Source: Candidatus Micrarchaeota archaeon CG1_02_47_40
Lineage (GTDB): Archaea; Micrarchaeota; Micrarchaeia; Anstonellales; CG1-02-47-40
DNA: 64,000 nucleotides
Reading direction: 5' to 3'
Assembly (NCBI GenBank): GCA_001871475.1
Contig: MNVE01000003.1
Span: forward strand, 37,837-101,836
Shown here in pieces: positions 7,273-40,017 of this stretch (positions within the stretch are counted from its first letter, which is position 1; each line of letters opens with the position of its first letter). Below the pieces are notes generated by a model. The model searched no databases, was not told where the DNA came from, and worked only from the letters and a program-made list of their open reading frames with translations. The translations under genes were made by a program, and so were the position numbers.

Positions 7273-7357
7273 ATAAAAACAACCCGAAAAGAATAAAAAA
7301 ATTTATGCATCTCTGCTTGACGCGCTGCGTCAAGTCGATGCACTTTTTTAGTGAAAG

Positions 7358-7468
7358 TGCATCCGCCGGGATTTTTGGGCGCCAATTACAGCAAACATGC
7401 TGCCAATCAGCCGAACCCGGGTCTCAAGCTTGGGAAGCTCGGATCCTACCAGGCTGGACTACGGATGC
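7358..7468 (-). tRNA. tRNA-Gly(CCC) with T-loop intron (approx. 7375..7412)
   Basis: GCATCCG TA GTCC AGCCTGGTA GGAT C CGAGC TTCCCAA GCTTG AGAC CCGGG TTC[38-nt intron]AAAT CCCGG CGGATGC A; intron forms a hairpin plus bulge-helix-bulge. Confidence 0.88.
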
Positions 7469-7501
7469 ACAGGCAATTCTTTTGCCTCGCTATTTATTTA
7501 A

Positions 7502-8503
7502 ATGCCCCCTGCGTGCTATATGGCGATGGATGCGTATCTTTGTGCAATAAAATACGCAAAACGCAGTATTCCAAAGTCTGCTCTTTTTGCCTTCAACACC
7601 TGCATAGATGCGGTTGTAAAAACCACCCCCCAAATGCTGCTCTGCCTCCCCCTGATACAGAAGGACAGGCATGTGCGGGAAGCGGTTCTTTCTTCTTTAC
7701 AGAGGGAGATAACCATAGACAAGGAAGAGCTCTCCTTTTTGCGCAAAACCTTCCCCCGCCCCCAATACAGAATTGGAGGGCAGGCAGGGCAGGCTGCGGA
7801 AGTAGCGCGTGCATTGGGAGTTCTGCCGATAATATTCCCTGAAAGGAAGAAAAAAGAGCTTCCAATACACTATGTTTTTGAATACTGCAATTCGCTTGGG
7901 ATGTGCAATCGCATTATTGCCTCTTACGAGCCGCAGCCGATGATTCCACAGGCAGGCTTGCATCTTCCAAAGAGGCTCCTTCGCTCCCTCAGTCATGCCT
8001 TCCTTGGAGGCTTTCACCTAATGAAATCAAAGGAAGAGATTATGCAATCGGCAAAAATAATCCATGCCTGGAAAAAGCAAAACCCGCACCTACGCATCTT
8101 CGTTGAGCTTGGCGACTTTCAGAAAAAGGAAGTTCTGGCTGCCGCCAAAAAATACGTCCTTCCTCCTGCCGACTGCGAGGGGATGAATGAGGAAGAGCTG
8201 TTTCTGCTTACTGGCAGGCACGGAATAGATGCGATAAAGAAACTTCCAAAGGGAACTGGCAAAATACTCTTTCACTCCCCGAATTTTTCCTTCACACTGC
8301 CAAAGGATGAAGGGGACGAGCAGGCGCTCCTTTTTGCAAGATTAGTCTGCTCTTACAGGGCAAAATACGGGAAAAATCCCTCTTTTTCCTCGCTTGCAAA
8401 ATACGCAAAAACCTCCCCTTCACTGCACATAGAAAACCCGAAATTCACGGTTGGGCTGGGAGACGCTTTCAGCTGCGCTTACTTTCTGGCGGCAAAAAGA
8501 TGA
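7502..8503 (+). CDS. ADP-dependent phosphofructokinase/glucokinase family protein (start may be 7520)
   Basis: ALFAFNTCIDAVV near N-terminus and C-terminal NPKFTVGLGDAFSCAYF (GxGD catalytic motif). Confidence 0.72.
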   Translation: MPPACYMAMDAYLCAIKYAKRSIPKSALFAFNTCIDAVVKTTPQMLLCLPLIQKDRHVREAVLSSLQREITIDKEELSFLRKTFPRPQYRIGGQAGQAAEVARALGVLPIIFPERKKKELPIHYVFEYCNSLGMCNRIIASYEPQPMIPQAGLHLPKRLLRSLSHAFLGGFHLMKSKEEIMQSAKIIHAWKKQNPHLRIFVELGDFQKKEVLAAAKKYVLPPADCEGMNEEELFLLTGRHGIDAIKKLPKGTGKILFHSPNFSFTLPKDEGDEQALLFARLVCSYRAKYGKNPSFSSLAKYAKTSPSLHIENPKFTVGLGDAFSCAYFLAAKR

Positions 8504-8521
8504 TTGAATATACCGCGCACA

Positions 8522-8845
8522 TCATCCAAATGTCAGAATCCTATCCGACTCTTCCACCAGTTTAAGCAAATCCCTCATGGTTGAGATTGGGCAGACGCCG
8601 CTGCCCTCCTTCTGCCTTGATTTTAAGCAGGTTCCACATGCCAATATTTTTCCCTTATTCCCAAGGAAAGAGGCGACCTGTTCATCTACCTTGTATTTCT
8701 CGCTTCTGATTTCTTCTATCTCAACGCCCCTGTTCAGAAGAAAGACGCTGACCTCGTGATTTGCATTCAGCGCAGTCGTTCCGAATCTGAAGGCATTCCA
8801 AACTTCTTCCGGCTCGTTCGTGCTTATGACAATCCCGATTTTCAT
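8522..8845 (-). CDS. DsrE/DsrF-like family protein
   Basis: MKIGIVISTNEPEEVWNAFRFGTTAL...V.VFLLNRGVE...ILACGTCLKSR. Confidence 0.75.
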   Translation of the reverse strand: MKIGIVISTNEPEEVWNAFRFGTTALNANHEVSVFLLNRGVEIEEIRSEKYKVDEQVASFLGNKGKILACGTCLKSRQKEGSGVCPISTMRDLLKLVEESDRILTFG

Positions 8846-8873
8846 TCATAACACCTCTTTATAAAAACACATA

Positions 8874-8987
8874 TGCGGCCGCCGGGATTGGCAGGCTTGC
8901 CTGACAAATTTTGCCGTCAGGCAAATCTTTTGAACCCGGATTATTAGCTTGGAAGGCTAGAATCCTACCAGGTTGAATGACGGCCGC
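8874..8987 (-). tRNA. tRNA-Gly(UCC) with T-loop intron (approx. 8891..8931, junction uncertain by 1 nt)
   Basis: GCGGCCG TC ATTC AACCTGGTA GGAT T CTAGC CTTCCAA GCTAA TAAT CCGGG TTC[~41 nt]CAAT CCCGG CGGCCGC A. Confidence 0.83.
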
Positions 8988-9132
8988 AAATATGGACTAT
9001 TTTAGGCAGGATAAGATTAAAAAGATGAAAAGAAAATGCGACTCTGCCTGCCCTTCGGGCAAGTCGTCGCATTTTTCGCTCTATTTGCCCTTCGGGCAAG
9101 TCTTGACAACTCCGTTGTCAATCTGCTCAAAA

Positions 9133-9241
9133 TGCGACCGCCGGGATTTTTGGGCCTTCGTTATCCCGCGAGGGGAGCACGAAGAGAACCCGGGCCTTAA
9201 GATTGGCAACCTCATATCCTACCAGGCTAGACGACGGTCGC
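9133..9241 (-). tRNA. tRNA-Gly(GCC) with T-loop intron (9150..9185)
   Basis: GCGACCG TC GTCT AGCCTGGTA GGAT A TGAGG TTGCCAA TCTTA AGGC CCGGG TTC[36 nt]AAAT CCCGG CGGTCGC A; intron hairpin CTTCGT/ACGAAG. Confidence 0.88.
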
Positions 9242-9481
9242 ATCCTTGATGCAACTATTCTTATGGATAAGCACATTTAAGAAAATTGCCCTTGCTTGGT
9301 AACAGTTTAAACATGGCCGAAAGGGTTTTATCCTTCCTTTACAAGAATAAACTGGGAGGGAGATGGGGGTAGAACAATTGTCGGGAGATTTTGTATTGTG
9401 TCACACTCCACAACATATAAAAACACCCATACCTAAAATATAAACCTTCCATTCTTAAAACTCAAAATAGAGGAGATACCT

Positions 9482-10000
9482 GTGGCTTACTCAAAAACTG
9501 AACCATCCCTTGTAGAATTGACCCGTGAACTATTTGGAGATTTGTCTGATTTCATATGTGAACGGAAGATAGATGAAGAAAAAGTAAAAAAGTATGATCA
9601 GGTTCTTTCAGTACTCGAAGGGCGAAAAGAGTGTTGGGCGATGAACACTGCCTTGCCACCAATAGACTCTATAAAAATTTACGGGGCTTATTCTACAGTC
9701 TACGGAACTCTTTACGGGATTGCTAAAAATCTTGACCTCGGGATAAAACGAAAGGAAAATCCAAAAGCTGCAAAAGAAGTGTATTCAATCCTTCAGAATG
9801 CGGTTGACCTTATACCAAAGCTTGAGAAGGTTACTAAAGAAAAAAAGGCTCCCGCCCAAATTATAAGTGAAATATTCGATGCCAGCCGTTCCCTAAGAAG
9901 GCAGGCAATAAACAAGCAGATTATACAGGCAGGAGAGCTTCCGGACAGAAAAAAGCTCATAATCGAACTCGGAGAGCATATTGAAAGCAATCTCAACTAG
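9482..10000 (+). CDS. Hypothetical protein (GTG start), paired with the downstream PIN-like gene
   Basis: ORF with RBS-like GGAG upstream; nearly abuts the next gene. Confidence 0.65.
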   Translation: MAYSKTEPSLVELTRELFGDLSDFICERKIDEEKVKKYDQVLSVLEGRKECWAMNTALPPIDSIKIYGAYSTVYGTLYGIAKNLDLGIKRKENPKAAKEVYSILQNAVDLIPKLEKVTKEKKAPAQIISEIFDASRSLRRQAINKQIIQAGELPDRKKLIIELGEHIESNLN

Positions 10001-10002
10001 CG

Positions 10003-10791
10003 GTGTTTTCTTCTGTGGGTGTAAAAATTTACATAGAAACGTCAATAGTTGTTTCTGCATCGCTAGGTAGCATGCTTGGGGGCAAACAGTTGAAACATGA
10101 GCGCTATGACACTACATTCAATCTCCTTCAATATGCCGAACAGTATTACCAACAACAAAAAAATGGATTTTTCACAACACACAGTGTAGTTATTGAGGCA
10201 AAAAGAGTTATTGACAAAGCCCTCAACAGCCTGCTTGAAAGCAAACTTCCGAAGTTAATCAAAAAGGGAAAGCCAGAACGTTTAGTTAACGCAGAAAAAT
10301 ATCATCTCCTTCTTAATGAATGTACGGACCAACTCGAAACATGGCTATCTTATCTCAAATGCGAGAACTACGACAACCGGAAAAAATCCGAGATTGTTGA
10401 ACAGCTTCAGGGCGAGTTCCAGATTTTGGATATTGAGTTTCGGAAAGCTAACCCCGGCGACATTAATCATTTTCATCTATCAACGCGAAATACTGGTTTC
10501 AGAAGAGTATGCAAAGCCATTTGGACCGAGCAGAGAAAAGAAGCTCTTGAAGAATACAAGCCCAAACATGGACGGACTGATATTGAGATTATGGCAGAAA
10601 TAGCCAGCATAAACCAAGAAAAAAGTGTTGAAGTATATATTGCCAGTGAAGATAGACATTTTTATGCCAAACAAACCAGAGATCTTCTTGAACAGCTTTA
10701 TGGGATAAAATGCAGGCGTTCACACGAACTGTTGGCTGATGGTATGATAAAAAAGTTATTAAAGAACGAAGAGGCTACCCCTGCTTCTTAA
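10003..10791 (+). CDS. PIN-like domain protein (start 10003 or 10015)
   Basis: N-terminal VKIYIETSIVVS and C-terminal VEVYIASEDRHFYAKQTRDLL resemble PIN-fold acidic motifs. Confidence 0.55.
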   Translation: MFSSVGVKIYIETSIVVSASLGSMLGGKQLKHERYDTTFNLLQYAEQYYQQQKNGFFTTHSVVIEAKRVIDKALNSLLESKLPKLIKKGKPERLVNAEKYHLLLNECTDQLETWLSYLKCENYDNRKKSEIVEQLQGEFQILDIEFRKANPGDINHFHLSTRNTGFRRVCKAIWTEQRKEALEEYKPKHGRTDIEIMAEIASINQEKSVEVYIASEDRHFYAKQTRDLLEQLYGIKCRRSHELLADGMIKKLLKNEEATPAS

Positions 10792-10855
10792 GCAAATTAG
10801 GATGGACTTTCCCCATCTTGTTGAGGCAACTCAATAAACCTAACCCGAAATTTCA

Positions 10856-10974
10856 TGCCGCGTGCCGGATTTGAACCAGCGACACTGCGGTGCCAAAACC
10901 TCAAAAGGGAATTTTAGCAAACCCCCCTTGGAAATTCTTCAGCCGCATGCTCTCCCAGGCTGAGCTAACGCGGC
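10856..10974 (-). tRNA. tRNA-Phe(GAA) with canonical 37/38 intron
   Basis: GCCGCGT TA GCTC AGCCTGGGA GAGC A TGCGG CTGAAG[intron]A CCGCA GTGTC GCTGG TTCAAAT CCGGC ACGCGGC A. Confidence 0.92.
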
Positions 10975-11040
10975 ACACTTGTGCCAACAAAGAATCTTTT
11001 GGCACTTCATATTTTAATAAGCTTGCCTGCCCAATCCTAA

Positions 11041-12756
11041 GTGATGAAAAGGAAGCATTTTCTACTGCTTTTCGGGGCGATTTTGCTTGCCGCTTTATTC
11101 CTAAGGCTCAATGCGATAAACACCACCGAACCCTGGTGGGACGAAAATTTATACACTGTGCGCCCTTACAATTTCCTTGAATCCGACCACCTCTCCACCA
11201 TAGACCAGGCGCCCCTTTACTTTTACTTGGCAGATGTTGTGTACAAAATAATGGGGCTTTCAGTTTTCTCTGCGAGATTTCTCTCCCTTTTCTTCGGGAT
11301 GCTTTCCATTCCCCTCCTCTACTTAGTTGTGCGGGAAATTGCCTCAAAAGAGCACGCCCTCATTTCTTCAGCTTTTCTCGCATTCAGCGGTTTTCATATT
11401 GCTTATACAATTGGCGATATGGGATTGGCTGCCACTTTCTTCATCCTCCTATTCCTTTACTTTTTCATCAAACTCCTCAAAACAGGTGAGAACAAATACC
11501 TTCTTCTTTGCTCCCTTACAGCCGCACTGGGGACGCTTATAAAATCATACATGCTCATTTTCGCATTCTCCTGCGGGCTGTATTTCATCTACTCCCTTTA
11601 CCGCAAAGGAGGATTGGATGCGTCATCCTTCCTTAAGAAATTTCCCCTCAAATACCTCATCGCATCCCTCATTCTTTTCCTCTTTTTCGTTTCCCCCATT
11701 CTCATATACAACCTCCTCCTTTTCCAGGAAAAGGGGCAGATGGACATTATTTTCACAAGATTTTTCAGGCTTGATGAGAGTGCTTACGCAGGGCTTGGCA
11801 TGCCTGAATTTGACGTTTCAATACTTCCTGGCAATCTGGCAAACATGGTCTCCAATTACTTTTTGCACCACGACATGGCAATATTTTCCCTTGCGGTTTT
11901 GGGAATGCTTCTTGTCGCATATAAGAGAGAAGGGGAGCACACATCGCTTCTTCTCCTCTGTTTTCTGCTTCCGCTCTTCTTCCTTCTCTGCTCAACACAG
12001 CTTCCCAAAAACTTCGTGTTTTTCGCCCCGATAATTTCATTCTTTGCGGCGGATGCAGTTATTTTTTTGAGTTCAAAGGCAGCGCCGTTTTTCAAATTCA
12101 ACCATCTTCTTGCAATGCTCGTACTAATAGTCCTCGCACTTAATCTTTATGCCATCATCTCCAATTATGAACGCTCTTTCCCGACAGTCCAACTGCGCGA
12201 TGAGGTTTCAAAATATTCCCCTCAATCAACTCTTTTCATAGCGGACTCAAGAATTTACAGGGGCAAATTCACCTTTGCGCTCATGGACAGGCATTACGCT
12301 GAAACGCTGGAGTTAAGATATGTGCCATTTGCAAAGGACGAGGCAAACTCCGTGCTCACAAAAACCGTTTTCATAGAATGCGTGCCAGGGGACTGCGGCT
12401 GGGGTGCGGGCAAGGTAGATGCAACACTTACTGCAGAAGAGATAAGCTCCCTAAAGAAAAATCTCGTTGCGGGAAAGGACATTCTCCACAATGGCAAACC
12501 ATATTACCGCATCTACTCCGGTTTTCTCTCCCTTGAGCCATACTCCCTTTCAGGGTTGGATTATGTGCATTCCTTCTACTTCTACCCTGTTGCGTGGAAG
12601 GAAAAGCGGCTCTCACAGGACAATTACAATACGGAAAATTCACTGCATTCACTTGGAAAAATTGCGATTTACCTTTCCATAATTGCAGCAATAGTGCTTT
12701 CCCTCTATTCCATTTACGTTTTTGCAAGATTTTGCAAAAAAGAACAGACAGAGTAA
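11041..12756 (+). CDS. GT39/ArnT-like membrane glycosyltransferase
   Basis: Multi-TM protein; N-terminal RLNAINTTEPWWDENLYT (acidic DE loop), QAPLYFYL. Confidence 0.7.
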   Translation: MMKRKHFLLLFGAILLAALFLRLNAINTTEPWWDENLYTVRPYNFLESDHLSTIDQAPLYFYLADVVYKIMGLSVFSARFLSLFFGMLSIPLLYLVVREIASKEHALISSAFLAFSGFHIAYTIGDMGLAATFFILLFLYFFIKLLKTGENKYLLLCSLTAALGTLIKSYMLIFAFSCGLYFIYSLYRKGGLDASSFLKKFPLKYLIASLILFLFFVSPILIYNLLLFQEKGQMDIIFTRFFRLDESAYAGLGMPEFDVSILPGNLANMVSNYFLHHDMAIFSLAVLGMLLVAYKREGEHTSLLLLCFLLPLFFLLCSTQLPKNFVFFAPIISFFAADAVIFLSSKAAPFFKFNHLLAMLVLIVLALNLYAIISNYERSFPTVQLRDEVSKYSPQSTLFIADSRIYRGKFTFALMDRHYAETLELRYVPFAKDEANSVLTKTVFIECVPGDCGWGAGKVDATLTAEEISSLKKNLVAGKDILHNGKPYYRIYSGFLSLEPYSLSGLDYVHSFYFYPVAWKEKRLSQDNYNTENSLHSLGKIAIYLSIIAAIVLSLYSIYVFARFCKKEQTE

Positions 12757-12789
12757 GTTTTATTATCCTCCCCTCCGTTTTATTTCCAT

Positions 12790-14214
12790 ATGTGGACTAC
12801 TGCCGAGGTGCCTATTCCTTCCGACCCCTTCTCCTGTGTTATCGGGCAGGATGAAGCGGTTAGGATAGCGCGCATAATCACAAAACAAAGAAGGAATCTT
12901 CTCCTGGTGGGTCCGCCGGGCGTAGGAAAGAGCATGGTCGCATGGGCTGTTTCTTCTTCTCTTCCCCCTGCCTGCGAGGAAATTTCAATCCTTCACAATC
13001 CGGAATGCCCGGAGCGCCCGGTATGCGAGTCAAGAAGAAGGGAAAACATAGACGCGGAGGAGCATTTTTTTCGTGTCAGCGGCAGGGCAACCGATGCGGC
13101 AGACATCCCCTTCCACGCTGCGGAGCGCCTCGGATTTCGCTGCCGCCGCTGTGCAGCAATCTCCTCATGCAATATTCAGGCATGCCCCAAATGCGGCTTT
13201 GACAAATACCGGCTTGCATCTTCCCCATTTGACGAGCTTGTCACCTCAATTGATTCGGGAAGAAGGGAAAAGCGCGTGCAGACGACGATAAAAAACACCG
13301 TTAGCGGCGCTGATGAGGTTTTCCTTTTTGAAGCCGCCTCGGATTCAAAGGCGCGCGTGTTCAATGCAAATGAACTTGAAAAGCTGAAACTTTACGCACT
13401 GCGCCGCCCCCGCAAAATACTTGTTCCGCTTGGGCGCAAGACGTTCATACAGGCGACCGGCGCAAGCGAAACCGAACTTTTGGGTGATGTGAAGCACGAC
13501 CCGTACGGGGGGCATGCGGAACTGGGCACGCAGCCTTATGCGCGCGTGGTGCCAGGCGCCATTCACGAAGCGCACGAGGGGGTGCTTTTCATAGACGAGC
13601 TTTCCTCAATGGGGCGATTGCAGCGCTTCATACTGACTGCGATGCAGGAGAAAAAATTTCCGATTTCCGGAAAAAACCCCTCAAGCACAGGCTCCTCCGT
13701 CCGCGTGGACGGGGTTCCGTGCAATTTCATTTTCGTTTCAGCCCTGAACATAAATGATTTGGCGGGGATTCTCCCCCCGCTGCGCTCAAGGATTGCAGGG
13801 GACGGCTACGAGGTTCTTTTAAATACGCACATGGGAGATACAAAAGAGAACAGGGACAGGCTCCTCCAATTCATGCGCCAGGAAATAGAAAAGGACGGAA
13901 GAATACCTCATGCCAATGAAGATGCGGCACACACACTAATTGAAGAAGCAAGGAAAAGGGCAGGGGAGATAGATAACGCACACGATTCGCTCACACTGCG
14001 CCTGCGCGGTTTGTCAGGTGTGATAAAGCTCGCAGGGGATCTGGCGGTGTTTGAAGGCGCACAGCTGATTGAAAAAAAGCACATAACCCTGGCAATAGAA
14101 AAAAACCGCTCGGTAGAGGAGCAGCTTCATGAAAAATACGGCTCTGCATTCAAGGCAGGGATGTCCGACCTCTCGTTCAGAGAAGGGCGGGAAAGGGCAA
14201 GCGACATCACTTAA
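12790..14214 (+). CDS. AAA+ ATPase, archaeal LonB-like ATPase module with a zinc-ribbon insertion and no S16 protease domain
   Basis: LLLVGPPGVGKSM (Walker A), GVLFIDELSSM (Walker B), CRRC...CPKCGF zinc ribbon; ends without a Lon protease domain. Confidence 0.75.
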   Translation: MWTTAEVPIPSDPFSCVIGQDEAVRIARIITKQRRNLLLVGPPGVGKSMVAWAVSSSLPPACEEISILHNPECPERPVCESRRRENIDAEEHFFRVSGRATDAADIPFHAAERLGFRCRRCAAISSCNIQACPKCGFDKYRLASSPFDELVTSIDSGRREKRVQTTIKNTVSGADEVFLFEAASDSKARVFNANELEKLKLYALRRPRKILVPLGRKTFIQATGASETELLGDVKHDPYGGHAELGTQPYARVVPGAIHEAHEGVLFIDELSSMGRLQRFILTAMQEKKFPISGKNPSSTGSSVRVDGVPCNFIFVSALNINDLAGILPPLRSRIAGDGYEVLLNTHMGDTKENRDRLLQFMRQEIEKDGRIPHANEDAAHTLIEEARKRAGEIDNAHDSLTLRLRGLSGVIKLAGDLAVFEGAQLIEKKHITLAIEKNRSVEEQLHEKYGSAFKAGMSDLSFREGRERASDIT

Positions 14215-14387
14215 CATGCCTTTTTCACATTCTTTTTTTTCCTCCTTCCCGTAAATACTCTTCCAATATTCTTCTTTTTCCCCTTCTTTTAAACATCGCA
14301 TAATCCCCCCATTAGTCTTTTTTCCTTCCTCGCAATCTTTAAAAACAGTCCCTCTGTAAGTAAGTGGAAATAAAGGGGTGCTTTTGA

Positions 14388-15200
14388 ATGTCAATGATAT
14401 CCACAAAGCAGATGGGCTACGGTTCTGCGGTAATAGGGCTGCTTGGGGTAGTTGGCAGTTTTGCAGGCGGAGGGGGCATTTTCTCCCTCATAGGCGGCAT
14501 CGTTGCCGGTTTGGGCGCGGTGCTTGCAATCGGATTTTACAAATACGGCTACGTGCTTTTCCCCTTCCTTACAACCGGGGCAAAAATAGTGCAGGTTACG
14601 GATACCGGCTATGAAATACCCCCGGAGCAGAATGCCATACTAAAGCGAGTCGGCTCAAGCTATTACGCCTCCATGTTTTTGGGGGTGCGCATATACGAAT
14701 CCACAACGGACAAGACGCCCCAGGAGAATATCATTTACTCCGAATACTTTGAGCGGGCGATTTCCTCTGTGCGCTTCGTCACGAAGTTTGCGATGTTAGT
14801 ATACGTAAAAGACATAACCGACTTTAGGGACAAGATGGAGACAAAGCACGCAGAGGCGCAGCTTCGGCTTTCCCGTGAGCGCGACAAATCCGAGCCGGAC
14901 GTGCTTAAAATAGACCGCTACGAGCGCGAGGTTTCCATGTGGGAAAACCAGATTTCAAAGCTCACAAAAGGCATCAAGCCCATGGGTTCTATTGCATACA
15001 TAATGACTACTGCTACCGGCTCAACAAAAGAAGCCGCGCTGGCTGCGGCAAAATCGCAGGCAAACGAGGTGCGCGCCACGGTGGCAAACGCGCTCAACGT
15101 GGATGTGGTGCCCTTAACAGGAGAAGAAATGAAGCTCTGCTTTGACTGGGAGCACACAATCCCCCCCACGCAAAGGGAAATCGAAAGCCAGCTTGAATAG
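14388..15200 (+). CDS. Membrane protein of VirB4-like operon, hypothetical
   Basis: Gly-rich N-terminal TM segments, soluble C-terminus; closely spaced with the next ORF. Confidence 0.75.
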   Translation: MSMISTKQMGYGSAVIGLLGVVGSFAGGGGIFSLIGGIVAGLGAVLAIGFYKYGYVLFPFLTTGAKIVQVTDTGYEIPPEQNAILKRVGSSYYASMFLGVRIYESTTDKTPQENIIYSEYFERAISSVRFVTKFAMLVYVKDITDFRDKMETKHAEAQLRLSRERDKSEPDVLKIDRYEREVSMWENQISKLTKGIKPMGSIAYIMTTATGSTKEAALAAAKSQANEVRATVANALNVDVVPLTGEEMKLCFDWEHTIPPTQREIESQLE

Positions 15201-15208
15201 GTGTAAAA

Positions 15209-16783
15209 ATGGGAAGGATGAAACTATCCCACCTTTTCAACAAGGACCTCGCCAAAAGGAACATCTTCGTGCGCCCGCCGGAGCCGCCCGAAGAATACCT
15301 GATGAACGACCCGGTAAATTCCATTTACATTGGAAGGACAAAAATATTCCACGTCCCATTTTACTGGACATTCCAGAGGATAACAAACCCGCACATCTGC
15401 GTTGTGGGGATAACCGGCGCGGGAAAAAGCTACTTCGTGAAAACATTCCTGACGCGCGCCTCTTTCGTGTGGGGCACGAACGCATTCATAATAGACTGGG
15501 CAGGGGAGTACAAGGAATGGGTGAAGCAGACGGGCGGGCAGGTAATCTCACTTGGAAAAGGCTCTTACATAAACCTTCTTGATACCGGGGGGATGAAGCC
15601 CAACGACCGTGTGAAGCAGATAATCCGCACGCTTGAAATATTGACGGATATTGGAAGATACCCGGAGCAAAAGCGCCTCACGGAACAGGCGTGCGAGCGT
15701 GCATATGTGCAGGCAGGATTCAAGATGGACAAGAAAATACAGCGCGACCGCTCGGGCAGCCAGCTGCCCCCTCCCACACTGCGCGACGTGCAGCACTCGC
15801 TTGAGGAGCAGCTCTCGGCAGGCACCTACGAATTTCCCGCAGAGCTTGAGAACGCAATTTACCGTGTAAAGCAATTTACGCGCGAGGGGGAGGATTATTT
15901 CGCGCAGCAGTCAACCGTGAATTTGGAAAAGCTCACAAATGTAGGGCTTGTGGATTTGGATTTGTCAGGGCTTCCGGACGAGGTTTTCAGGGGATTGGCA
16001 GGGCTTTCAATGCTGCAATTCCTAAAGGAAAAAATGCGCGAGGCGGGCTGGAGCTCCACAAAGGGGCTGAAGCTGATGATAGTGCTTGATGAGGCGTGGA
16101 AGATTGCAAAGGACGACAATTCGGATGCGGTGATGATTGTCCGCGAGGGAAGGAAATACCAGTTCGGCCTCATAGTCGCATCCCAAAACCCGACAGATAT
16201 TTCAGAGGCGATTTTCTCAAACGTAGGCACAACATTCATACTGCGCGTGAAGTTCGAGCGCTTCCTTGATTACCTGCAGAGCACGCTCAACTTCTCGGAT
16301 TACATGAGGGGGGAGATAGGGAAGCTTGGCGTAGGGCAGTGCGCCGTGAACATGGCTTTTCAGACAACCACGGAATTTTCGGAAACGTTCCTCATAGACA
16401 AGGTGGACGGGGAGGAGCCCCTGCAGGAGCTCTTCCTTGATTTGGAATCCGCCCTGTCGGATGAGGAAAAGAGGGATGAATTTATGGCAAAAGTAGTTTC
16501 ATTTGAGAGGGGAGAGCTGAAGAAGAAGCTGTTGTCATTCGGGCTTGACAACGTGCACATAGAAGAAATAATCGGGCTTTTCGGGAAGAAAAACAACCAC
16601 GTGGACGTGGTGTCATTCGTCGTGCTGCTTGAGCGCTACGGCCTGGCGCGCAACAGCATAACCTCGTTTCTCAAGGACGTGGGGATTGACGATTCAACGG
16701 TCATAAACATCTTCTCAAAGTCCGATTTCAAGAAGCTCGGGATTGAGGACCGCGACATAACGCAGGTAATATTGGAGGAATAA
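15209..16783 (+). CDS. VirB4/HerA-like ATPase (DUF87-type)
   Basis: VVGITGAGKSYFVKTFL (Walker A), FIIDWAGEY, LMIVLDEAWKIA (Walker B), GLIVASQNPTDIS. Confidence 0.88.
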   Translation: MGRMKLSHLFNKDLAKRNIFVRPPEPPEEYLMNDPVNSIYIGRTKIFHVPFYWTFQRITNPHICVVGITGAGKSYFVKTFLTRASFVWGTNAFIIDWAGEYKEWVKQTGGQVISLGKGSYINLLDTGGMKPNDRVKQIIRTLEILTDIGRYPEQKRLTEQACERAYVQAGFKMDKKIQRDRSGSQLPPPTLRDVQHSLEEQLSAGTYEFPAELENAIYRVKQFTREGEDYFAQQSTVNLEKLTNVGLVDLDLSGLPDEVFRGLAGLSMLQFLKEKMREAGWSSTKGLKLMIVLDEAWKIAKDDNSDAVMIVREGRKYQFGLIVASQNPTDISEAIFSNVGTTFILRVKFERFLDYLQSTLNFSDYMRGEIGKLGVGQCAVNMAFQTTTEFSETFLIDKVDGEEPLQELFLDLESALSDEEKRDEFMAKVVSFERGELKKKLLSFGLDNVHIEEIIGLFGKKNNHVDVVSFVVLLERYGLARNSITSFLKDVGIDDSTVINIFSKSDFKKLGIEDRDITQVILEE

Positions 16784-16841
16784 CGGCTGACGGCTTCCGC
16801 CGTCAAGGGTGATTTGAATGCAAAGAGGAATGGTGATTTGA

Positions 16842-17321
16842 ATGCAAAGAGGAATTTGTATAATTTCCGAAACAGAAACGGAAGGGTATCCCATAAAGGA
16901 GGATTTTGTGATAAGCTCCCTGCGAAAACTGAAGCGGATTTTCGGCATAGCGCGCAACAACACGCTCGTGGTGGGGAGGGACAGCCTTGAGGAGTATAAA
17001 AAAAGGCGCTCAAAATTCGAGAAAACATTCGTGCAGTATGCGGCGATTGCAATAATACTGGTGCTTGCAATCGTGGTGCTGCCATTGCTTTTGGGCGCGC
17101 CGTTTTCAATCGGCTCCGTTCTCATGTCAATGGTGATAGGCGCATTGATAATTGCGTTTTCCCTGACTTCATACTTGCCCGCTATATATGCAGAAGGAGA
17201 AAAAGAGCCAAAGAAACAACCAACCATACTGACGGCAGTTGCAGCAACTCAAAAGAAATCCTCCCTTAAAAAACAAAAAACAGGCATCAACGTGTTTAAG
17301 AAAACACGTCTGAAAAAATAG
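16842..17321 (+). CDS. Small two-TM protein, hypothetical
   Basis: ORF with two hydrophobic segments within the operon; start lies in a tandem duplication. Confidence 0.7.
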   Translation: MQRGICIISETETEGYPIKEDFVISSLRKLKRIFGIARNNTLVVGRDSLEEYKKRRSKFEKTFVQYAAIAIILVLAIVVLPLLLGAPFSIGSVLMSMVIGALIIAFSLTSYLPAIYAEGEKEPKKQPTILTAVAATQKKSSLKKQKTGINVFKKTRLKK

Positions 17322-17348
17322 GAATTTTTTCAAAAAACGGTGAATTGA

Positions 17349-18083: not shown

Positions 18084-18125
18084 TAATGCCTCTAAAAATT
18101 CAGGCATTGGGGCTGGAATTGAATT

Positions 18126-20696: not shown

Positions 20697-20699
20697 AAT

Positions 20700-21848
20700 T
20701 TATTTCAGCAATCCTTCATAAACCTTCAGCATCTTCTCTGCGCACTTCTCCTTTGAATAGGCAAGCGCGCTTTTCCTTGCAAATTTCCCCATCCTCCCCC
20801 CATCTTCAATCGCCATCAGGATTTTTTCCGCGCAATCCTCCCCATCATGAAAGCAGTATCCGCTCTTTCCCTCACTTATGAATTCTGCAGTCGCTGATTT
20901 TTTCGGCGCGCACACAGGCACTCCGCAGGAAAGCGCTTCAAGCGCAGTCATTCCCTGCGTCTCAAACAGGGAGGGAAGCACGAATACGTCAGCAGCGCAA
21001 TAAAAGCTCCTCAATTCCCCTTCCGGCACGAAGCCGGTGAAAAGGAACATCCCCTCAAGATTGCTTTTTTTCACAATCCCCTCATAATACTCAAGCGCCG
21101 GCCCCCTTCCCGCAACCACGAACACGCTGTCCGGCAGCTCGCTTCTTATTATTCCTGCCGCCTCAATAAGCACATCAAGGCTTTTTTCCTTTGCAACTCT
21201 TCCAAGGTAAAGTATGACCCTTTTCCCGGAAATTCCAAGCCTCTTTTTCACCGCCTCCCCCTCTTTTTTTGAATGGGAAAACTTTTCCACATCCACGCCG
21301 CTTGGGACAATCACGCTCTCTATTCCGTGCTCTGCAAGTATCCTCCGCGTGCTCTCACTCGGGCAGGTCACCTCATCAAAACAATTGTAATACGCCTGCA
21401 GGTATTTCCAAATCAGTCTGCCTCCCACTCCCTGCGCGGTTTCCCCCCAGCCCAAATAATGCGTTGCACCGGTCACAAGCGTGTGAAACGTAGCAACCGA
21501 GGGCACACGGAGAAATTTCGAAGTCTGTACAGCCGCCAGCCCCATCGTGGCAACCGCGTGCGAGTGCACGAGCCCAATCCCAAGCTTTCTTGCCTTTAGC
21601 GGGGCAAAAAAAGGGAAAAGCGCCACCTTGTAATCAGGGTAAGGGGCGAATTTTGCAGAAGTGTAATAAAACACATTCCTGTCCCGGTTTTCAATCCTGT
21701 CGCACTCGCTTCCCGAAGAAAAAACATACACCTTATTTTTTTTTCCCTCCAGAAATTCGCACATGGAGAGTATTGACGTGACAACTCCGTCTTTATTTGG
21801 AAGGTAAGTATCTGTAAAAAATGCAATTTTCATTTTTCTCAATTCCAA
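20700..21848 (-). CDS. Glycosyltransferase family 4
   Basis: FFTDTYLPNKDGVVTSI, VHSHAVATMG, GRVAKEKSLDVLIEA, FVLPSLFETQGMTALEALSCGVPV. Confidence 0.92.
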   Translation of the reverse strand: MELRKMKIAFFTDTYLPNKDGVVTSILSMCEFLEGKKNKVYVFSSGSECDRIENRDRNVFYYTSAKFAPYPDYKVALFPFFAPLKARKLGIGLVHSHAVATMGLAAVQTSKFLRVPSVATFHTLVTGATHYLGWGETAQGVGGRLIWKYLQAYYNCFDEVTCPSESTRRILAEHGIESVIVPSGVDVEKFSHSKKEGEAVKKRLGISGKRVILYLGRVAKEKSLDVLIEAAGIIRSELPDSVFVVAGRGPALEYYEGIVKKSNLEGMFLFTGFVPEGELRSFYCAADVFVLPSLFETQGMTALEALSCGVPVCAPKKSATAEFISEGKSGYCFHDGEDCAEKILMAIEDGGRMGKFARKSALAYSKEKCAEKMLKVYEGLLK

Positions 21849-21854
21849 ACGGTC

Positions 21855-23645
21855 CTACTTTATTTTAGTCAGCCCCCAAAGAATCGCAACAACAGTGCCT
21901 ATCAGTATAGTGGGTGCCGCAATCCTCGCAATCGCAACCACCGAGCTTATCGTTGCGACCATTTCTATTGACTGCCTTGAGCCGAACACCTCAATCTTCA
22001 TCCTTCCAAGAGCAGAGCCGGCTTTCACCTCCTCAAGATTGGCATAAGCGCTTAAGAGGCACTCCAAAACCGCATCAGCAGTCTTTGCGCCCCCCCGCTT
22101 CCCTATGGGGTTTAGCACCCCCTGCACGTTGTTTATCTCGTGCGTGTCAGTTGTGAATACCTCGCATCCTATCTTCTGTCCCTTTCCCCTGCCCCACTTC
22201 TGCACGGTTTCAATAAGCTCGCTTCTGAATTCTGGTGTCACCCCGTTTGAGTCAATCACAACATATGCAAACAATTTTCCAACATCAAAGAGCGCCACTT
22301 TTATCCCGTTCCCTCCGATTGCAGGCTCTCCGACTGGGTTTTTTCTTCCGATTCCAAGCCGCATTTTTTTCATATCTGCCTTTTTTGAAAGCGCGTCAAG
22401 CAGCGCATCTTCCATCTCAAATGCAATTGGCGAGCCGGGCTCCACAGAAGCAATATCCCCTGTTTCCGAGTTGTGCTCATCCACAACGATTGCAGTTTTA
22501 GCATATCTGCCTGCAACGTTCATAAGCGAGCGCCCGATGGCAAAATTCACATCCTCCGTGGTTTTCGGCGCCCGCGTGAAAGAGGCAAACGCGCAATCAT
22601 TCACCAGGAGGCAGAGCGCGCCCGAGTCTCCGCTTTTCCCTTCCAAAATCGCCCCCTTGGCAGGCGAGAATTTCATCTTCTTTCTTTCAAATTCATACGC
22701 CTGCATTATTTTTTCCGCTTCAGTGCCAGCAACCGGGTTAAAATCATGCGTGCAGGTGCCATGGAACACAAACACTTCCCCTCCTTCTTGTTTTCCTATC
22801 CTCTGCGCAAGAATTTTCGGGAATTCGCTCCCGCCCAGATTTCCAAACGGACCAAAGTGCACGTAAGGCACTATGAATGTGGTTTTCTGCCGCTTCCCCT
22901 CAAAGCAGAGCACCCCAAGCAGCGTTTCAACCTCCTCTCCCATCTCTTCAAACGTCTCTTCCAAATCCTTTTCCCGGTTCAGCCACTGCGCGGCAAACAT
23001 ACTGATGGCATCAGTGCTTTTCACCCCGATGTTTCTTTTCATCGGCGCGTTTATGAGAAAGAAAAGCATGTACAGCCCGACAAGGAAGAGAAATGAGGCA
23101 AAATACATCTTCAGTATTGCAAGCAGCCAGTCCTGCTCAATTTCAATCTGCCTGCTTGCAAGGAGAAATGCTGCGTTGTAGCATAGCTGCAGCAATGAAA
23201 ATAAGAAAGCGGTTTTTCCCAATCCAAACACTGTCCCCACGATGAAAAACCACGTGACGAACGCAAGCCCAAACCCAACGAACACCACCTCGTTTCCAAG
23301 GGGCATTCCCGCCCGCTCAAGCAATGCGCCTGCAATGTAAAAACTCCCATATACTGCCGCCGCGACAAGGGAGAGGAAAATCACCCTTCGCAGCACAATC
23401 TCCCGCCTTACTATGTAAAAAGTGATTGCCGAGAGGAGAGCAGGCACGGTTATTAGGAAAATTCCGGTTGCCATGCCCTCAACCGCAGAGGAGAATCCTA
23501 CCTCTCCCTTCCTTATGGAAATTATTGCTATCCCGAAAATCATACCTACAAGCGCAAGGTAAAGCCACAGCACCCTTGCCCTTGGCAGGCTCATGAAATA
23601 CTTCGTGAGGTTTACGGCGCGTTCAGCAGAACCCATCAATTTCAT
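21855..23645 (-). CDS. DUF2070 family archaeal membrane protein
   Basis: N-terminal TM cluster followed by PYVHFGPFGNLGGSEFP...FHGTCTHDFNP... DEHNSETGD. Confidence 0.8.
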   Translation of the reverse strand: MKLMGSAERAVNLTKYFMSLPRARVLWLYLALVGMIFGIAIISIRKGEVGFSSAVEGMATGIFLITVPALLSAITFYIVRREIVLRRVIFLSLVAAAVYGSFYIAGALLERAGMPLGNEVVFVGFGLAFVTWFFIVGTVFGLGKTAFLFSLLQLCYNAAFLLASRQIEIEQDWLLAILKMYFASFLFLVGLYMLFFLINAPMKRNIGVKSTDAISMFAAQWLNREKDLEETFEEMGEEVETLLGVLCFEGKRQKTTFIVPYVHFGPFGNLGGSEFPKILAQRIGKQEGGEVFVFHGTCTHDFNPVAGTEAEKIMQAYEFERKKMKFSPAKGAILEGKSGDSGALCLLVNDCAFASFTRAPKTTEDVNFAIGRSLMNVAGRYAKTAIVVDEHNSETGDIASVEPGSPIAFEMEDALLDALSKKADMKKMRLGIGRKNPVGEPAIGGNGIKVALFDVGKLFAYVVIDSNGVTPEFRSELIETVQKWGRGKGQKIGCEVFTTDTHEINNVQGVLNPIGKRGGAKTADAVLECLLSAYANLEEVKAGSALGRMKIEVFGSRQSIEMVATISSVVAIARIAAPTILIGTVVAILWGLTKIK

Positions 23646-23705
23646 CTCCTAACCGTTATAATCTCGTATATCTTTATAAAAACCCCCCCTCCCCAATAAC
23701 CTCCT

Positions 23706-24329
23706 ATGGAAAAAATCTGCCCAAGATGCGGCATTTCCTCAAAAACCGCCCCCTTCGCAGGCAATTTCTGCGAGAACTGCTACCCGCTTAGCGTGCGCAT
23801 CCCAATGGCGGTTAACGTTTTACAGTGCAAAAAGTGCCGCCATATAAAATATGCGGGCTGGTCAGCGCCAACGCCAGAAAACCTAACCCATATCATTCTC
23901 AAGCAGAGCAAGGGAAAGGTTGCATCCGCCCGCTTTGACAAGAAGAACTCCCTGCTTGCAGTTGAAATGGATTCCGCGCACGGCACTTTCATAAAATCAT
24001 TTCCCGTGGAAATAATTTATTCTCCCTCCCTCTGCGACACCTGCTCAAAATCCGCAGGCAGCTACTCGGAAGCGATAATACAGCTTAGGGGGAACAAGGA
24101 GAAGATAGAAAAATACATTGACAAGCTCCAGTCAAGGATTCGCAGGAAAACCTTCATTTCCCGCACCGTTTCCCTTTCTGAGGGAATTGACTTTTACGTC
24201 GGGGATAAGATAGAGGCGCTGCGGGCGCTGCAGAACTTTGATTTGGAATATCTGCGCACGGAAAAGCTGGTGGGGCAGAGAAAAGACGGGAGAAGGATTT
24301 ACCGCTCAACTTTTCGGGTGCGGTTCTAA
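23706..24329 (+). CDS. NMD3-like protein
   Basis: CPRCG...CENCYP...LQCKKCRHIKYAG zinc-binding N-terminus. Confidence 0.8.
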   Translation: MEKICPRCGISSKTAPFAGNFCENCYPLSVRIPMAVNVLQCKKCRHIKYAGWSAPTPENLTHIILKQSKGKVASARFDKKNSLLAVEMDSAHGTFIKSFPVEIIYSPSLCDTCSKSAGSYSEAIIQLRGNKEKIEKYIDKLQSRIRRKTFISRTVSLSEGIDFYVGDKIEALRALQNFDLEYLRTEKLVGQRKDGRRIYRSTFRVRF

Positions 24330-24616
24330 ATTTTCACTAATCCTCTTTTCTTAAGCTCTTCCGCCCCCTGCGGGTTCCAAAGCCAGCTAACCGTCTTATC
24401 AGCTTCAACATGTATTTTTCCGGAATATTCCAGATAATCAAGTATGGTGACAAAAGTCGTCCACATGACTTTTTTCTTTAAGTTTTTCCATATTTCCGTT
24501 ATGGTTTTTGAGCTCCTGCTCCTGAAAAGCTCCTTTTCCATCATGAGTATGGTGTCAAGCCTGGGATACCTGTCAAGGTTTTTCGGCTTAAATTCAGTTA
24601 GAGTTGTAGCCCCCAT
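24326..24616 (-). CDS. Hypothetical winged-helix-like protein
   Basis: TITEIWKNLKKKVMWTTFVTILDYLEYSGKIHVE; 4-nt convergent overlap with the NMD3-like gene. Confidence 0.6.
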   Translation of the reverse strand: MGATTLTEFKPKNLDRYPRLDTILMMEKELFRSRSSKTITEIWKNLKKKVMWTTFVTILDYLEYSGKIHVEADKTVSWLWNPQGAEELKKRGLVKI

Positions 24617-24715
24617 ATTTATCCCTTTGCCCTTCGGGCAAATCTAAAAAACCTAAAGGTTTTTTATCAATTGATGTATTTATCAAATGATAAATTTATA
24701 ATGCTTTTCTTTTTG

Positions 24716-25696
24716 TCAAGATTGGCTTTTCCTTTTGTTCCCTCCAATCCAGCCAATCCCCTCAACAATGCCAACCGAATCAACCAGTATCATCACAAAC
24801 CTTGTCATCAGCGTGAAAGCAATCGCCTGCGGCAAGCCTATTCCAAACTGCATCAAGACAAACGCAGCCCCTGCCTCGCTAACACCTGCCCCGGCAATCG
24901 TGGGAAGGGGCATGAACTGCAAAAGGGTTATGATTGGCTGCACAAAACCCCAGAATATTATTGGGGCAAACGCAATTTCCGGCTTTACCCCCAGGCTCAT
25001 GGCAATGAACCACCACTCAATCGCCTTGAAAATCCAGGTAATGAATATGAGCACGAGTATGTGCGGTGTCAGCGCCGATATAGCATGCGAGTTCTCCTGC
25101 ATCTTACCTATCATTTCCAGCGCTTTTCCCCCGAATGGCAGTCTCTCCGCGAAAGAAATCATTCCTAAAAACCTCTGCGAGAAAAGCAGGAGCGCCATAA
25201 AGGCAACCATTCCAAAAAGGCCAAGCAACCCCAGCACGATTCCCGCCCCGGCATTCTCCCCTGCCCCCACAATCACAAATGAAAATAAATACCAGGCGCC
25301 TATTCCGCCTGCAACCAGCTTGTAAATGAAATCAAACATCTGCGGGCCCAATATGGAAACAAGCGCCTCCCCGCTTTTCACTTTATGATTTTTTGCCAGC
25401 ACAGCCGCAGTTGCAAAATACCCGCTTCGCGCAGGCGTGAAATCCGATGCGAGCATGCCTGAAAAATGCGAGGTAAGTATCTTTTTGTACTCAAGCTTCG
25501 TTCCCAAATACTCAAGAATCATCTGTATTCTGTAAGCCATCACCGCATTAATTGCAAAATAAAAAACAAGCGCAACCGCAAAATAAGCAAGATTTGCCCC
25601 TGCAATCACTTCCGCTACCTTTCCGACATCCGCAAAGCTGACAACCGCAGCAAGCACTATCAAGGAAAAAACTATCTGCAGAATGGTTCTTTTCAT
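24716..25696 (-). CDS. Flippase-like (UPF0104/lysylphosphatidylglycerol synthase TM) protein
   Basis: Multi-TM protein; TPARSGYFATAAVLAKNHKVKSGEALVSILGPQMFDF motif; start at MKRTIL (25696). Confidence 0.8.
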   Translation of the reverse strand: MKRTILQIVFSLIVLAAVVSFADVGKVAEVIAGANLAYFAVALVFYFAINAVMAYRIQMILEYLGTKLEYKKILTSHFSGMLASDFTPARSGYFATAAVLAKNHKVKSGEALVSILGPQMFDFIYKLVAGGIGAWYLFSFVIVGAGENAGAGIVLGLLGLFGMVAFMALLLFSQRFLGMISFAERLPFGGKALEMIGKMQENSHAISALTPHILVLIFITWIFKAIEWWFIAMSLGVKPEIAFAPIIFWGFVQPIITLLQFMPLPTIAGAGVSEAGAAFVLMQFGIGLPQAIAFTLMTRFVMILVDSVGIVEGIGWIGGNKRKSQS

Positions 25697-25722
25697 TTTC
25701 TGTCCTCGTGGAGTATTAAAAG

Positions 25723-25866
25723 GGCCACAGCCGAGATTCTCATTTTCATACCCCATTCTTTCTCTTGGGGGGTGAAGACCTTAGGGGGGTGAAACCCCCA
25801 TATGGTTTTGAACTCGGGCTAAGGGCTCCACAGGCCCCTGTGCTACCAGGCTACACCACCGTGGCC
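25723..25866 (-). tRNA. tRNA-His(GUG) with long T-loop intron (~70 nt)
   Basis: G(-1) GCCACGG TG GTGT AGCCTGGTA GCAC A GGGGC CTGTGGA GCCCT TAGC CCGAG TTC[intron]GAAT CTCGG CTGTGGC C73; G-1/C73 His identity. Confidence 0.85.
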
Positions 25867-25967
25867 ACTGGCATTAATTGTAAATTAGAATGCTTAAAAA
25901 CACGTATCTCAAAAAGAAGAAAATAAAAGAAATAAAAAAGAAAAAAAGAGAGGGAAAATGTTCCCCC

Positions 25968-26240
25968 TTACTGCACGATTTCCCCGATTGCAAACGTGGA
26001 CTTAAGCTCCTTTATCCTTACCTTTATCTTGTCCCCCTTGTTTGCACCCGTGACGAATATCACGAAACCGTCCTTTTTTGCTATGCCGTCCCCTTTTGCG
26101 GCGATTGCTTCTATTTCAACGTCAATCTCGTCGCCGACTTTTACGGGCTTTGGCATAAATCCCCTGTTCCCTCTTCCTCCAAATCCTCCTCCTTCATCTC
26201 CTCCTCTGCCTCTTCCAAATCCTCCTTCTTCATCTCCCAT
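25968..26240 (-). CDS. TRAM-domain protein with RGG-rich N-terminus
   Basis: VKVGDEIDVEIEAIAAKGDGIAKKDGFVIFVTGANKGDKIKVRIKELKSTFAIGEIV. Confidence 0.88.
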   Translation of the reverse strand: MGDEEGGFGRGRGGDEGGGFGGRGNRGFMPKPVKVGDEIDVEIEAIAAKGDGIAKKDGFVIFVTGANKGDKIKVRIKELKSTFAIGEIVQ

Positions 26241-26373
26241 TTTACATACCTCCTTTTTCCAAAAAAAGCCGATCTCTCTTAGCAGTCATTCCCGCTTTGA
26301 AGAATTAGGCTTTCCGTGCCCCCCATTATGCACGGGACTGTTTATAATATTATCCCATTCAAATAAAGGCATT

Positions 26374-28656
26374 ATGGACTCAAGACGGCTCCTGATTTTT
26401 CTTTTGTTCATTGCCTTTTCAATGGCGTGTCCCTACTCCTCAACATCATTCACACTTGGCACTTCCGGCACTATAAACGTGAATACTACTTTCGACCTGT
26501 CAGTCACTGCAGTCAATGACACACAGTATGCGGGCGGTTGCCAAGACACGCTGAACGCAAACAGCTTATCGGTGCTGCTGGCAAGTTCTGGGAACCCTCT
26601 TTCAAACTACGACATTTCTTCATCTTATTCCAGCACAATTGCAACTGTTACGCTCAAAATCATCTCGCTTGGAACCTACAATATCTCATTTAGCAGCGCT
26701 GGCTGCGAATACGGCCCAATTTCCGCAAGCACAATCCTCTCCATTTACGGGGGAAACTTCTCCGGGCACATCTGGAATCAGACAAGCGGCACCGCGTTTG
26801 CCGGAGCGCAGGTAATCCTCTCAAGCGCAAGCTATGGCACGCAAACCGCTTTCAGCGATGCGGCAGGATTTTACTCCTTCCCGCAAACCCCTTCCGCTTC
26901 GGGCTATACTCTCACCGTAAACGCAAGCGGCTATTTGCAAAATCAGAGCACTTCAATTTCCCTGGCAGAAAACGAGGTCAAAACAACTGATTTCATACTC
27001 TACGCAAACCAAACAAGCACGCCTGCTGCCCAAGTGAACGTCACTCTGACGGGCATCGTTTCCAACTCCTCCACAAGTTCGCCGCTTTCCTCAATAACGC
27101 TCACCCTGCAGAACTCCTCCGCAAACCTCACAAACTCCACAAACTCAAGCGGTGCATATTCTTTCGGGGGAATTGCAGAAGGTACATACACCCTCTTCAT
27201 AACCTCAAGCGGCTTCAACTATTATTCCTCCTCACTGACTCTCTCAAATGGGACAAACAGCTATGACGTTTCGCTCGTGCCCTCAAGCACCGCAAGCAAC
27301 GGCACGGTGTATGGGTACATCAGAAACTCCACAAACAACGCCTCAATCACAAATGCGACAGTGAAAATATCAAAAACAAGCTACTCAAACACCTCAAGCA
27401 CCTCCTCAAGCGGCTATTATTCCTTTTCGCAGCTTTCAGCAGGCAATTACACAATAGAAATAAACGCCACCAACTTCGTTTCGCGCCTGCTTTACTTTGA
27501 GATAAAAAATTCCACAAGCGCTGTAGAGTTGAACATTTCCATGTTCACATATGTGATTACGAACCTCGCAAACGGGGTTTCCTGCTCGCTTGATTTACAG
27601 TGCAGTTCTTTGCACTGCTGTGCCGGCATCTGCACCGAGCTTGCCTGCAACCTCCAGGACGGTTCCGTCTGCTCCGCCGCCTCGGAGTGCCTTCTGGGCA
27701 GCTACTGCTGCAACTCGCATTGCCAGAGCATTCCCTGCGTGCAGACGAATATTCCTGCCGGAGGCTTGTGCAACCAAACCTACCAGTGCATAAGCGGGCT
27801 TACCTGCTGCCAGGGGGCATGCTCGCAAACCTGTGCGCAGGCAGATGAGGCGGTGTTTATTGAAAGAAGCGAAGTGGTGGTGCTCGGCTTCAAGAGGATT
27901 GAGGTAGTGCGCACGCTCGCTTCAAACAAATCGCAGGGAACGAGCAAGATAATCCTTTCCATAACAAACAAGGATGCGGAGGGCATAAATAATTTCGAAT
28001 ACCGCGAAACAATTCCCTCCTGGGCGCACACATCAACTTTAGTTGAGTTTGGCACGCGCCCCTTCTCAAACGAAACGCAGGCAAATCAGGAACTGTTTGC
28101 TTTCTGGCGCTACTCTTCGTTTGCCCCCGGAGAGAAAATAACCCTCTTATACACAATAAACAAATACATGGACAAGCTTGACGGATTCTCCTCTTTTGCG
28201 CAGCGCTACGAGGAGACAGTGGGGCAGTCGGAAAAGGCGGCAAGGCTGATTGCGCCAGCAAGAATAAAGCTCGGGCAGCAGGTAATGATTTCAGTGAAGG
28301 ATTTGGCGGGCAACCCCATTGAAAACGCAGGGGTGGCGGTCACTGCGCCAAACTCGGTGCGCACAATCTTAATTACCGATAAGGACGGGATTGCAAAATA
28401 CGTCGCCACCATAGAGGGCAATTATTACTACTCACTTGAAGGGTATTCCCTAATAGAATCCGTGAAGAAAACAGAGGCGCTTTCAGATTACTCCGAACCT
28501 GCAAACCTGACAAACGGCACTGCTGCCGGGGAATTCCGCCTCGGCGGGCTTGACAAGATGTCAATAGGCGTCGTTATTCTCGTCCTGCTTTTAGTCGCGG
28601 CGGTGATAGTGCTTGTGCTGATTGCGCTGTTTTACTACATTTATCTGAAAAAATGA
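26374..28656 (+). CDS. Secreted/surface protein with carboxypeptidase-regulatory-like repeats, Cys-rich segment, C-terminal TM
   Basis: Signal peptide; repeats such as VYGYIRNSTNNASITNATVKI...SSGYYSFSQLSAGNYTIEI; CSSLHCCAGICTELAC...CCNSHCQSIPC. Confidence 0.82.
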   Translation: MDSRRLLIFLLFIAFSMACPYSSTSFTLGTSGTINVNTTFDLSVTAVNDTQYAGGCQDTLNANSLSVLLASSGNPLSNYDISSSYSSTIATVTLKIISLGTYNISFSSAGCEYGPISASTILSIYGGNFSGHIWNQTSGTAFAGAQVILSSASYGTQTAFSDAAGFYSFPQTPSASGYTLTVNASGYLQNQSTSISLAENEVKTTDFILYANQTSTPAAQVNVTLTGIVSNSSTSSPLSSITLTLQNSSANLTNSTNSSGAYSFGGIAEGTYTLFITSSGFNYYSSSLTLSNGTNSYDVSLVPSSTASNGTVYGYIRNSTNNASITNATVKISKTSYSNTSSTSSSGYYSFSQLSAGNYTIEINATNFVSRLLYFEIKNSTSAVELNISMFTYVITNLANGVSCSLDLQCSSLHCCAGICTELACNLQDGSVCSAASECLLGSYCCNSHCQSIPCVQTNIPAGGLCNQTYQCISGLTCCQGACSQTCAQADEAVFIERSEVVVLGFKRIEVVRTLASNKSQGTSKIILSITNKDAEGINNFEYRETIPSWAHTSTLVEFGTRPFSNETQANQELFAFWRYSSFAPGEKITLLYTINKYMDKLDGFSSFAQRYEETVGQSEKAARLIAPARIKLGQQVMISVKDLAGNPIENAGVAVTAPNSVRTILITDKDGIAKYVATIEGNYYYSLEGYSLIESVKKTEALSDYSEPANLTNGTAAGEFRLGGLDKMSIGVVILVLLLVAAVIVLVLIALFYYIYLKK

Positions 28657-28709
28657 GAAAAACGCTTCTTGAAAAAGATATAAAGGCTAATCATCATAAT
28701 TTTTCTTAA

Positions 28710-28831
28710 GCTGGGGTCGCATAGCCTGGTCAGTGCGCTGGATTGCTAATCCAGTGCCCGCAAGGGCACGCAGGTTCTCGCAGGCATTGCTTTTCGGCAT
28801 TGCATGCGGCCTAAAAATCCTGCCCTCAGCG
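28710..28831 (+). tRNA. tRNA-Ser(GCU) with T-loop intron (28778..28814)
   Basis: GCTGGGG TC GCAT AGCCTGGTCA GTGC G CTGGA TTGCTAA TCCAG, long variable arm TGCCCGCAAGGGCA, GCAGG TTC[37 nt]AAAT CCTGC CCTCAGC G. Confidence 0.9.
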
Positions 28832-39968: not shown

Positions 39969-40017
39969 TGAAACAACCCTCCAATACTGCAACAATTAGC
40001 CCGCTCACCTTAATTAA

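Follow-up and report, generated by a model that had tools for sequence, protein, structure and literature searches.

The window, that is, the whole 64-kb stretch of DNA analyzed here, contains six tRNA genes and no others according to a descriptor scan run over both strands. As the first-pass annotation had claimed, five of the six are interrupted inside the T-loop, after TTC, by inserts of 36 to 70 nt. The interrupted genes are, on the minus strand, tRNA-Gly(CCC) (7358..7468, insert of 38 nt at 7412-7375), tRNA-Gly(UCC) (8874..8987, insert of 41 nt), tRNA-Gly(GCC) (9133..9241, insert of 36 nt at 9185-9150) and tRNA-His(GUG) with G-1 and C73 (25723..25866, insert of 70 nt at 25806-25737) and, on the plus strand, tRNA-Ser(GCU) (28710..28831, insert of 37 nt at 28778-28814). 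The remaining gene, tRNA-Phe(GAA) (10856..10974, minus strand), has an uninterrupted T-loop and carries a 45-nt intron (10936-10892) at the canonical position 37/38. Across each T-loop insert, the acceptor stem and the T-stem still pair, and removal of the insert restores a standard cloverleaf tRNA, as expected of archaeal BHB tRNA introns.

The pairing rule proposed for three of these genes holds exactly. In tRNA-Gly(CCC), tRNA-Gly(GCC) and tRNA-Ser(GCU), exonic GGGT or AGGT pairs with intronic GCCC or GCCT (GGGT/GCCC with bulges TC|G and AA|A in Gly-CCC, AGGT/GCCT in Ser-GCU), and the bulges TC|N and AA|A place the junction at 56/57. The extension of this junction to the other two genes was not borne out: tRNA-His(GUG), whose intron belongs to a family termed C, fits 59/60 (TTCA/TGAG, AA|A and AA|T), and tRNA-Gly(UCC) represents a third intron class, family B, with an intron at 8928-8888 if splicing occurs at 59/60. 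Of the notion of a single T-loop site shared across isotypes, the systematic use of the T-loop therefore stands, and the one site gives way to three close registers, chiefly 56/57 and 59/60. Together, the pairing rules and the restored cloverleaf agree with the proposal that the inserts would be archaeal BHB-type introns.

The prediction that such genes would be hidden from standard scanners came true for the two tools that were run: ARAGORN reported one tRNA only in the window (tRNA-His, with a wrong 3' end), and the Rfam tRNA family yielded two matches over its cut-off. Group I and group II introns were rejected, given the length of the T-loop introns and the lack of any ribozyme family match in the window, where a search at E 1 returned only tRNA and archaeal SRP RNA. 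Split or permuted tRNAs were likewise rejected, since in the descriptor scan each gene had its 5' part followed in cis by its 3' part. Short GC-rich hairpin repeats, for example GACTTGCCCGAAGGGCAA and CTTGACGCGCTGCGTCAAG, lie near the tRNA genes (window positions 9040-9130 and 7315-7365), and some long introns contain hairpins resembling them. Elsewhere in the window, the gene for the peptide release factor aRF1 (2737-5472, plus strand) includes an intein bearing a LAGLIDADG endonuclease, and closely spaced ResIII helicase and N6/N4 DNA methylase genes (34696-39995, minus strand) look like a type III restriction-modification pair.

T-loop introns across the genome and its relatives

The assembly carrying the window comprises 1.15 Mb and is 93% complete, so that some tRNAs are unseen. 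We identified 37 tRNA genes genome-wide by searching with the RF00005 family and with a model covering tRNA positions 8-56, by scanning stretches with a descriptor and by eye, a census that may miss genes (in its first pass, the positions 8-56 model scored 150 of 279 candidates). T-loop introns were present in 30 of the 37, and T-loop insertion is thus systematic across isotypes to an extent that the first-pass annotation had understated. The interrupted genes comprise three each for Gly, Ala and Arg, two each for Ser, Thr, Glu, Lys, Leu, Ile and Val, and one each for His, Gln (CUG), Asp, Asn, Tyr, iMet and Trp. The T-loop is intact in the tRNAs for Gln-UUG, Phe, Val-CAC, Arg-CCU, Arg-UCG and Thr-GGU, and the insert of Pro-UGG is located at approximately 53/54. 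An RF00005 search of the genome at E up to 10 revealed no intact second copy of any interrupted isodecoder, including the Gly, His and Ser tRNAs of the window.

Several individual genes show further peculiarities. The T-loop of tRNA-Thr(GGU) (L010) reads TGCAACT and lacks U55, tRNA-Arg(UCU) (L102) has an apparent extra intron in the 5' strand of the anticodon stem, and all three tRNA-Val genes (L002, L019 and L027) carry a D-loop intron. In tRNA-Asn(GUU) (L014), the T-stem contains an A52-C62 mismatch, and its 3' strand, CCTGC, is the one also found in Ser-GCU and Leu-UAG and was possibly carried over with an intron.

Nearly all named relatives of the splicing endonuclease EndA carry the label Candidatus Micrarchaeota or uncultured archaea, a few others sitting in differently labelled bins; the host is therefore a member of the Micrarchaeota (DPANN) and not of the Thermoproteales, the group from which the first-pass annotation had cited noncanonical tRNA introns as mainly known. 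Comparison with G001, a genome of another genus of the same family, showed that the mature tRNA sequences are 82-99% identical to their orthologues. The order of the tRNAs for Phe, Gly-GCC and Gly-UCC is conserved between the two genomes, and G001 has all three genes without interruption. Mature Ala-CGC, whose gene carries a 45-nt T-loop intron in this genome but lacks one in G001, is identical at 71 of 72 positions. Among 18 isodecoders compared, the intron was found here only in 10 cases, in both genomes in six and in neither in two. T-loop inserts recur in independent Micrarchaeota assemblies; in Candidatus Fermentimicrarchaeum limneticum, none of the 23 tRNAs parsed from best-scoring matches had one, and in family f8 (G031, G045, G049 and G053) D-loop introns are common in tRNAs. 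Across 59 genomes (the window genome and its relatives), the number of high-scoring tRNA matches ranged from 0 to 41 per genome.

Predicted splice registers and splicing machinery

For 57 T-loop introns from four genomes, we scored at each possible junction the pairing of the exon tetranucleotide preceding the 5' bulge with the intron tetranucleotide preceding the 3' bulge, and used shuffled sequences as the chance control. All four central-helix pairs were formed at 56/57 by 15 introns (shuffled, 2.6 +/- 1.6), at 58/59 by 12 (1.5 +/- 1.2) and at 59/60 by 20 (1.8 +/- 1.3), with pairing at the remaining junctions at or near the shuffled level. Overall, 45 of the 57 introns have the 4-bp helix and two 3-nt bulges of a BHB in at least one of these three registers, and the rest, about a fifth, form four of four pairs in none of them and are relaxed. 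In the 59/60 class, the T-stem serves as outer helix, and pairing of TTCR with the 3' end of the intron, mostly YGAA, makes a strict BHB; 14 of 20 such introns keep the helix in their minimum-energy fold. The 56/57 motif is a relaxed one because its helix borrows T-stem bases 51-53, so that the T-stem must open, and only 3 of 13 introns retain this helix in the minimum-energy fold. Covariation is seen between R57 and its partner in the intron (A-T 23, A-C 1, G-T 3, G-C 7; Fisher P = 1.6e-4, uncorrected for relatedness). Family B retains the C56-G pair and, mostly, an R57-Y pair, and looks like a weakened form of the 59/60 class.

The genome encodes a splicing endonuclease, EndA, of 395 aa, of which residues 6-395 align to residues 3-387 of the ARMAN-2 enzyme (solved structure 4fz2) with an E value of 6e-136. 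Its single chain of about 390 aa has the alphaN-alpha-betaC organization of the epsilon2 architecture. The catalytic residues Y240, H255 and K286 and the loop residues Y164 and K165 are invariant in ten aligned sequences, and the latter two correspond to Y160 and K161 of ARMAN-2, the Tyr-Lys of the broad-specificity loop (loop and catalytic residues are described in PMC12397907). The subunit type, which the first-pass annotation had singled out for examination, is by this alignment and residue conservation the predicted three-unit epsilon2 endonuclease of broad specificity. A gene for the RtcB ligase is also present (G000:C6:15163-17979; L350 and L351); it is interrupted by an insert of about 490 aa with intein and LAGLIDADG matches, and so the ligase required to join these interrupted tRNAs is itself interrupted. 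In the ten genomes of family f9 (G009, G016, G018, G023, G026, G029, G032, G035, G038 and G041), which have 28-41 high-scoring tRNA matches each, the endonuclease match is shorter or diverged, or was not detected, making them a natural comparison set.

From the gene structure, the pairing rules and the presence of both enzyme genes, we infer the following course of splicing. The epsilon2 endonuclease would cut the pre-tRNA at both ends of the insert, and RtcB would join the exons, leaving a T-loop of normal sequence, TTCAAAT or TTCGAAT. For introns of the 59/60 class, exon bases U54-R57 would pair with YGAA at the intron 3' end on top of a closed T-stem (strict hBHBh'), and for those of the 56/57 class nucleotides 51-54 would pair with the intron, forming a relaxed BHB in competition with the T-stem.

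Intron families and their origin

The intron bodies turned out to be related repeats, a feature not visible from reading the window alone. Families of bodies are common to unrelated isotypes and occur in D-loops and anticodon loops as well; in tRNA-Ser(UGA) (G000:C11:17462; L297), one element family occupies both the anticodon loop and the T-loop. Over approximately 100 nt, the Asn intron shares 96% identity with the Ser-UGA intron and 90% with the Thr-UGU intron; it is 82% identical to the Arg-UCU intron and has an 80% copy outside any recognized tRNA. This non-tRNA copy (L301, G000:C11:108344-108431) is flanked on both sides by a partial copy of a gene's 3' end. Family B consists of two hairpins with compensating changes in the alignment. 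Four genomes belonging to three families have it in T-loops, and in this genome the D-loop intron of Val-GAC belongs with several T-loop introns to this family. Two further genomes, G010 and G004, have homogeneous intron families of their own.

Collectively, we put the probability at roughly 85% that these are BHB-type T-loop introns cut by the epsilon2 EndA and joined by RtcB, and that they are mostly recent gains made by copying a few hairpin families. Because most of the shared isodecoders are free of introns in the sister genus, recent gain is the simplest reading, and from this presence and absence between sister genera we infer the direction, gain and not loss; many introns were probably gained recently by propagation within the genome. 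The few hairpin families would have been copied between tRNA genes, mostly recently in the lineage, and the introns appear to arrive in lineage-specific bursts. A more specific version, which we advance only tentatively, is that the T-loop introns may be copies of short structured mobile elements whose targets are the T-loop of tRNAs and a D-loop site resembling it, TC|AAT; the broad-specificity epsilon2 endonuclease would render them harmless, and separate bursts would have spread them within several families of Micrarchaeota.

Other explanations were weighed against this reading. Following an idea of Randau and Soll, the introns might have been selected for breaking the attachment site that the 3' half of a tRNA offers to integrating viruses and plasmids. 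The tRNA 3' end is indeed a typical archaeal attachment site, with intron gain proposed as protection (PMC3293823), and the T-loop insert splits the 3'-half sequence in 30 tRNAs; nevertheless, shared intron bodies, and lineages whose introns sit in the D-loop instead, agree with propagation in which no selection of this kind took part, and we consider this explanation rather unlikely. Fold-back or template switching might also have generated introns of the 59/60 class de novo, by creating an inverted copy of the T-loop (TTCAAA ... TTTGAA AAT) and hence an intron spliceable at birth. The 25-nt Gly-GCC intron of G004, essentially one T-loop-based hairpin, and the 20 introns with a TTCR-complementary 3' end are in line with such an origin. 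However, selection for splicing would yield an identical 3' end, and the long bodies that families B and C share among several tRNAs call for copying from a donor, which makes fold-back quite improbable as the source. That the interrupted genes are decaying copies of functional intact ones is very hard to reconcile with a genome search that turned up no intact version of any interrupted isodecoder and with intact stems and mature sequences conserved at the level seen against G001. An assembly or binning artefact is scarcely credible: some intron elements are located at contig ends, as repeats are, but the inserts vary in length and family, are followed by the correct 3' half of the tRNA and are seen again in independently assembled Micrarchaeota genomes.

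Relation to known systems and significance

Noncanonical tRNA introns accompanied by an epsilon2 enzyme are already known (PMC6379350), and the ARMAN-2 epsilon2 enzyme cuts both BHB and BHL substrates (PMC12397907; PMC6379350). Like the organism studied here, ARMAN-2 (Candidatus Micrarchaeum acidiphilum) belongs to the Micrarchaeota and combines the epsilon2 architecture with noncanonical tRNA introns. In 2011, Fujishima reportedly found the ARMAN-2 introns at various positions. In contrast, one loop dominates here and intron bodies are common to several isotypes. Large-scale transposition of tRNA introns is known from the Thermoproteales (Fujishima 2010, as summarized in PMC4033280 and PMC4090602), where, as here, similar intron bodies occur in different isotypes at canonical and noncanonical sites; that group, however, is of another phylum, and the two summaries do not report T-loop dominance. 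In the Asgard lineages Atabeyarchaeia and Freyarchaeia, introns are found in 92-95% of tRNA genes, many of them noncanonical, but the main text of that report states no concentration in the T-loop (PMC11291895). The permuted tRNAs for iMet and Tyr of Thermofilum pendens are joined at 59/60 (PMC3218864), a T-loop junction shared with one of the main classes described here, yet those are permuted halves and not introns, whereas here both halves lie in order in one gene. None of the publications compared here describes a genome in which a single loop is interrupted in most isotypes. What appears to be new relative to these publications is the concentration in the T-loop, repeated in separate Micrarchaeota lineages.

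The findings suggest that tRNA counts of such DPANN genomes, which serve to judge completeness and to support claims of tRNA loss, can be too low. A precursor without a T-loop raises the question of the order in which RNase P, RNase Z and T-loop modification act relative to splicing. Finally, sister genomes with and without introns in near-identical tRNAs, along with near-identical intron bodies across isotypes, make tRNA intron gain testable.
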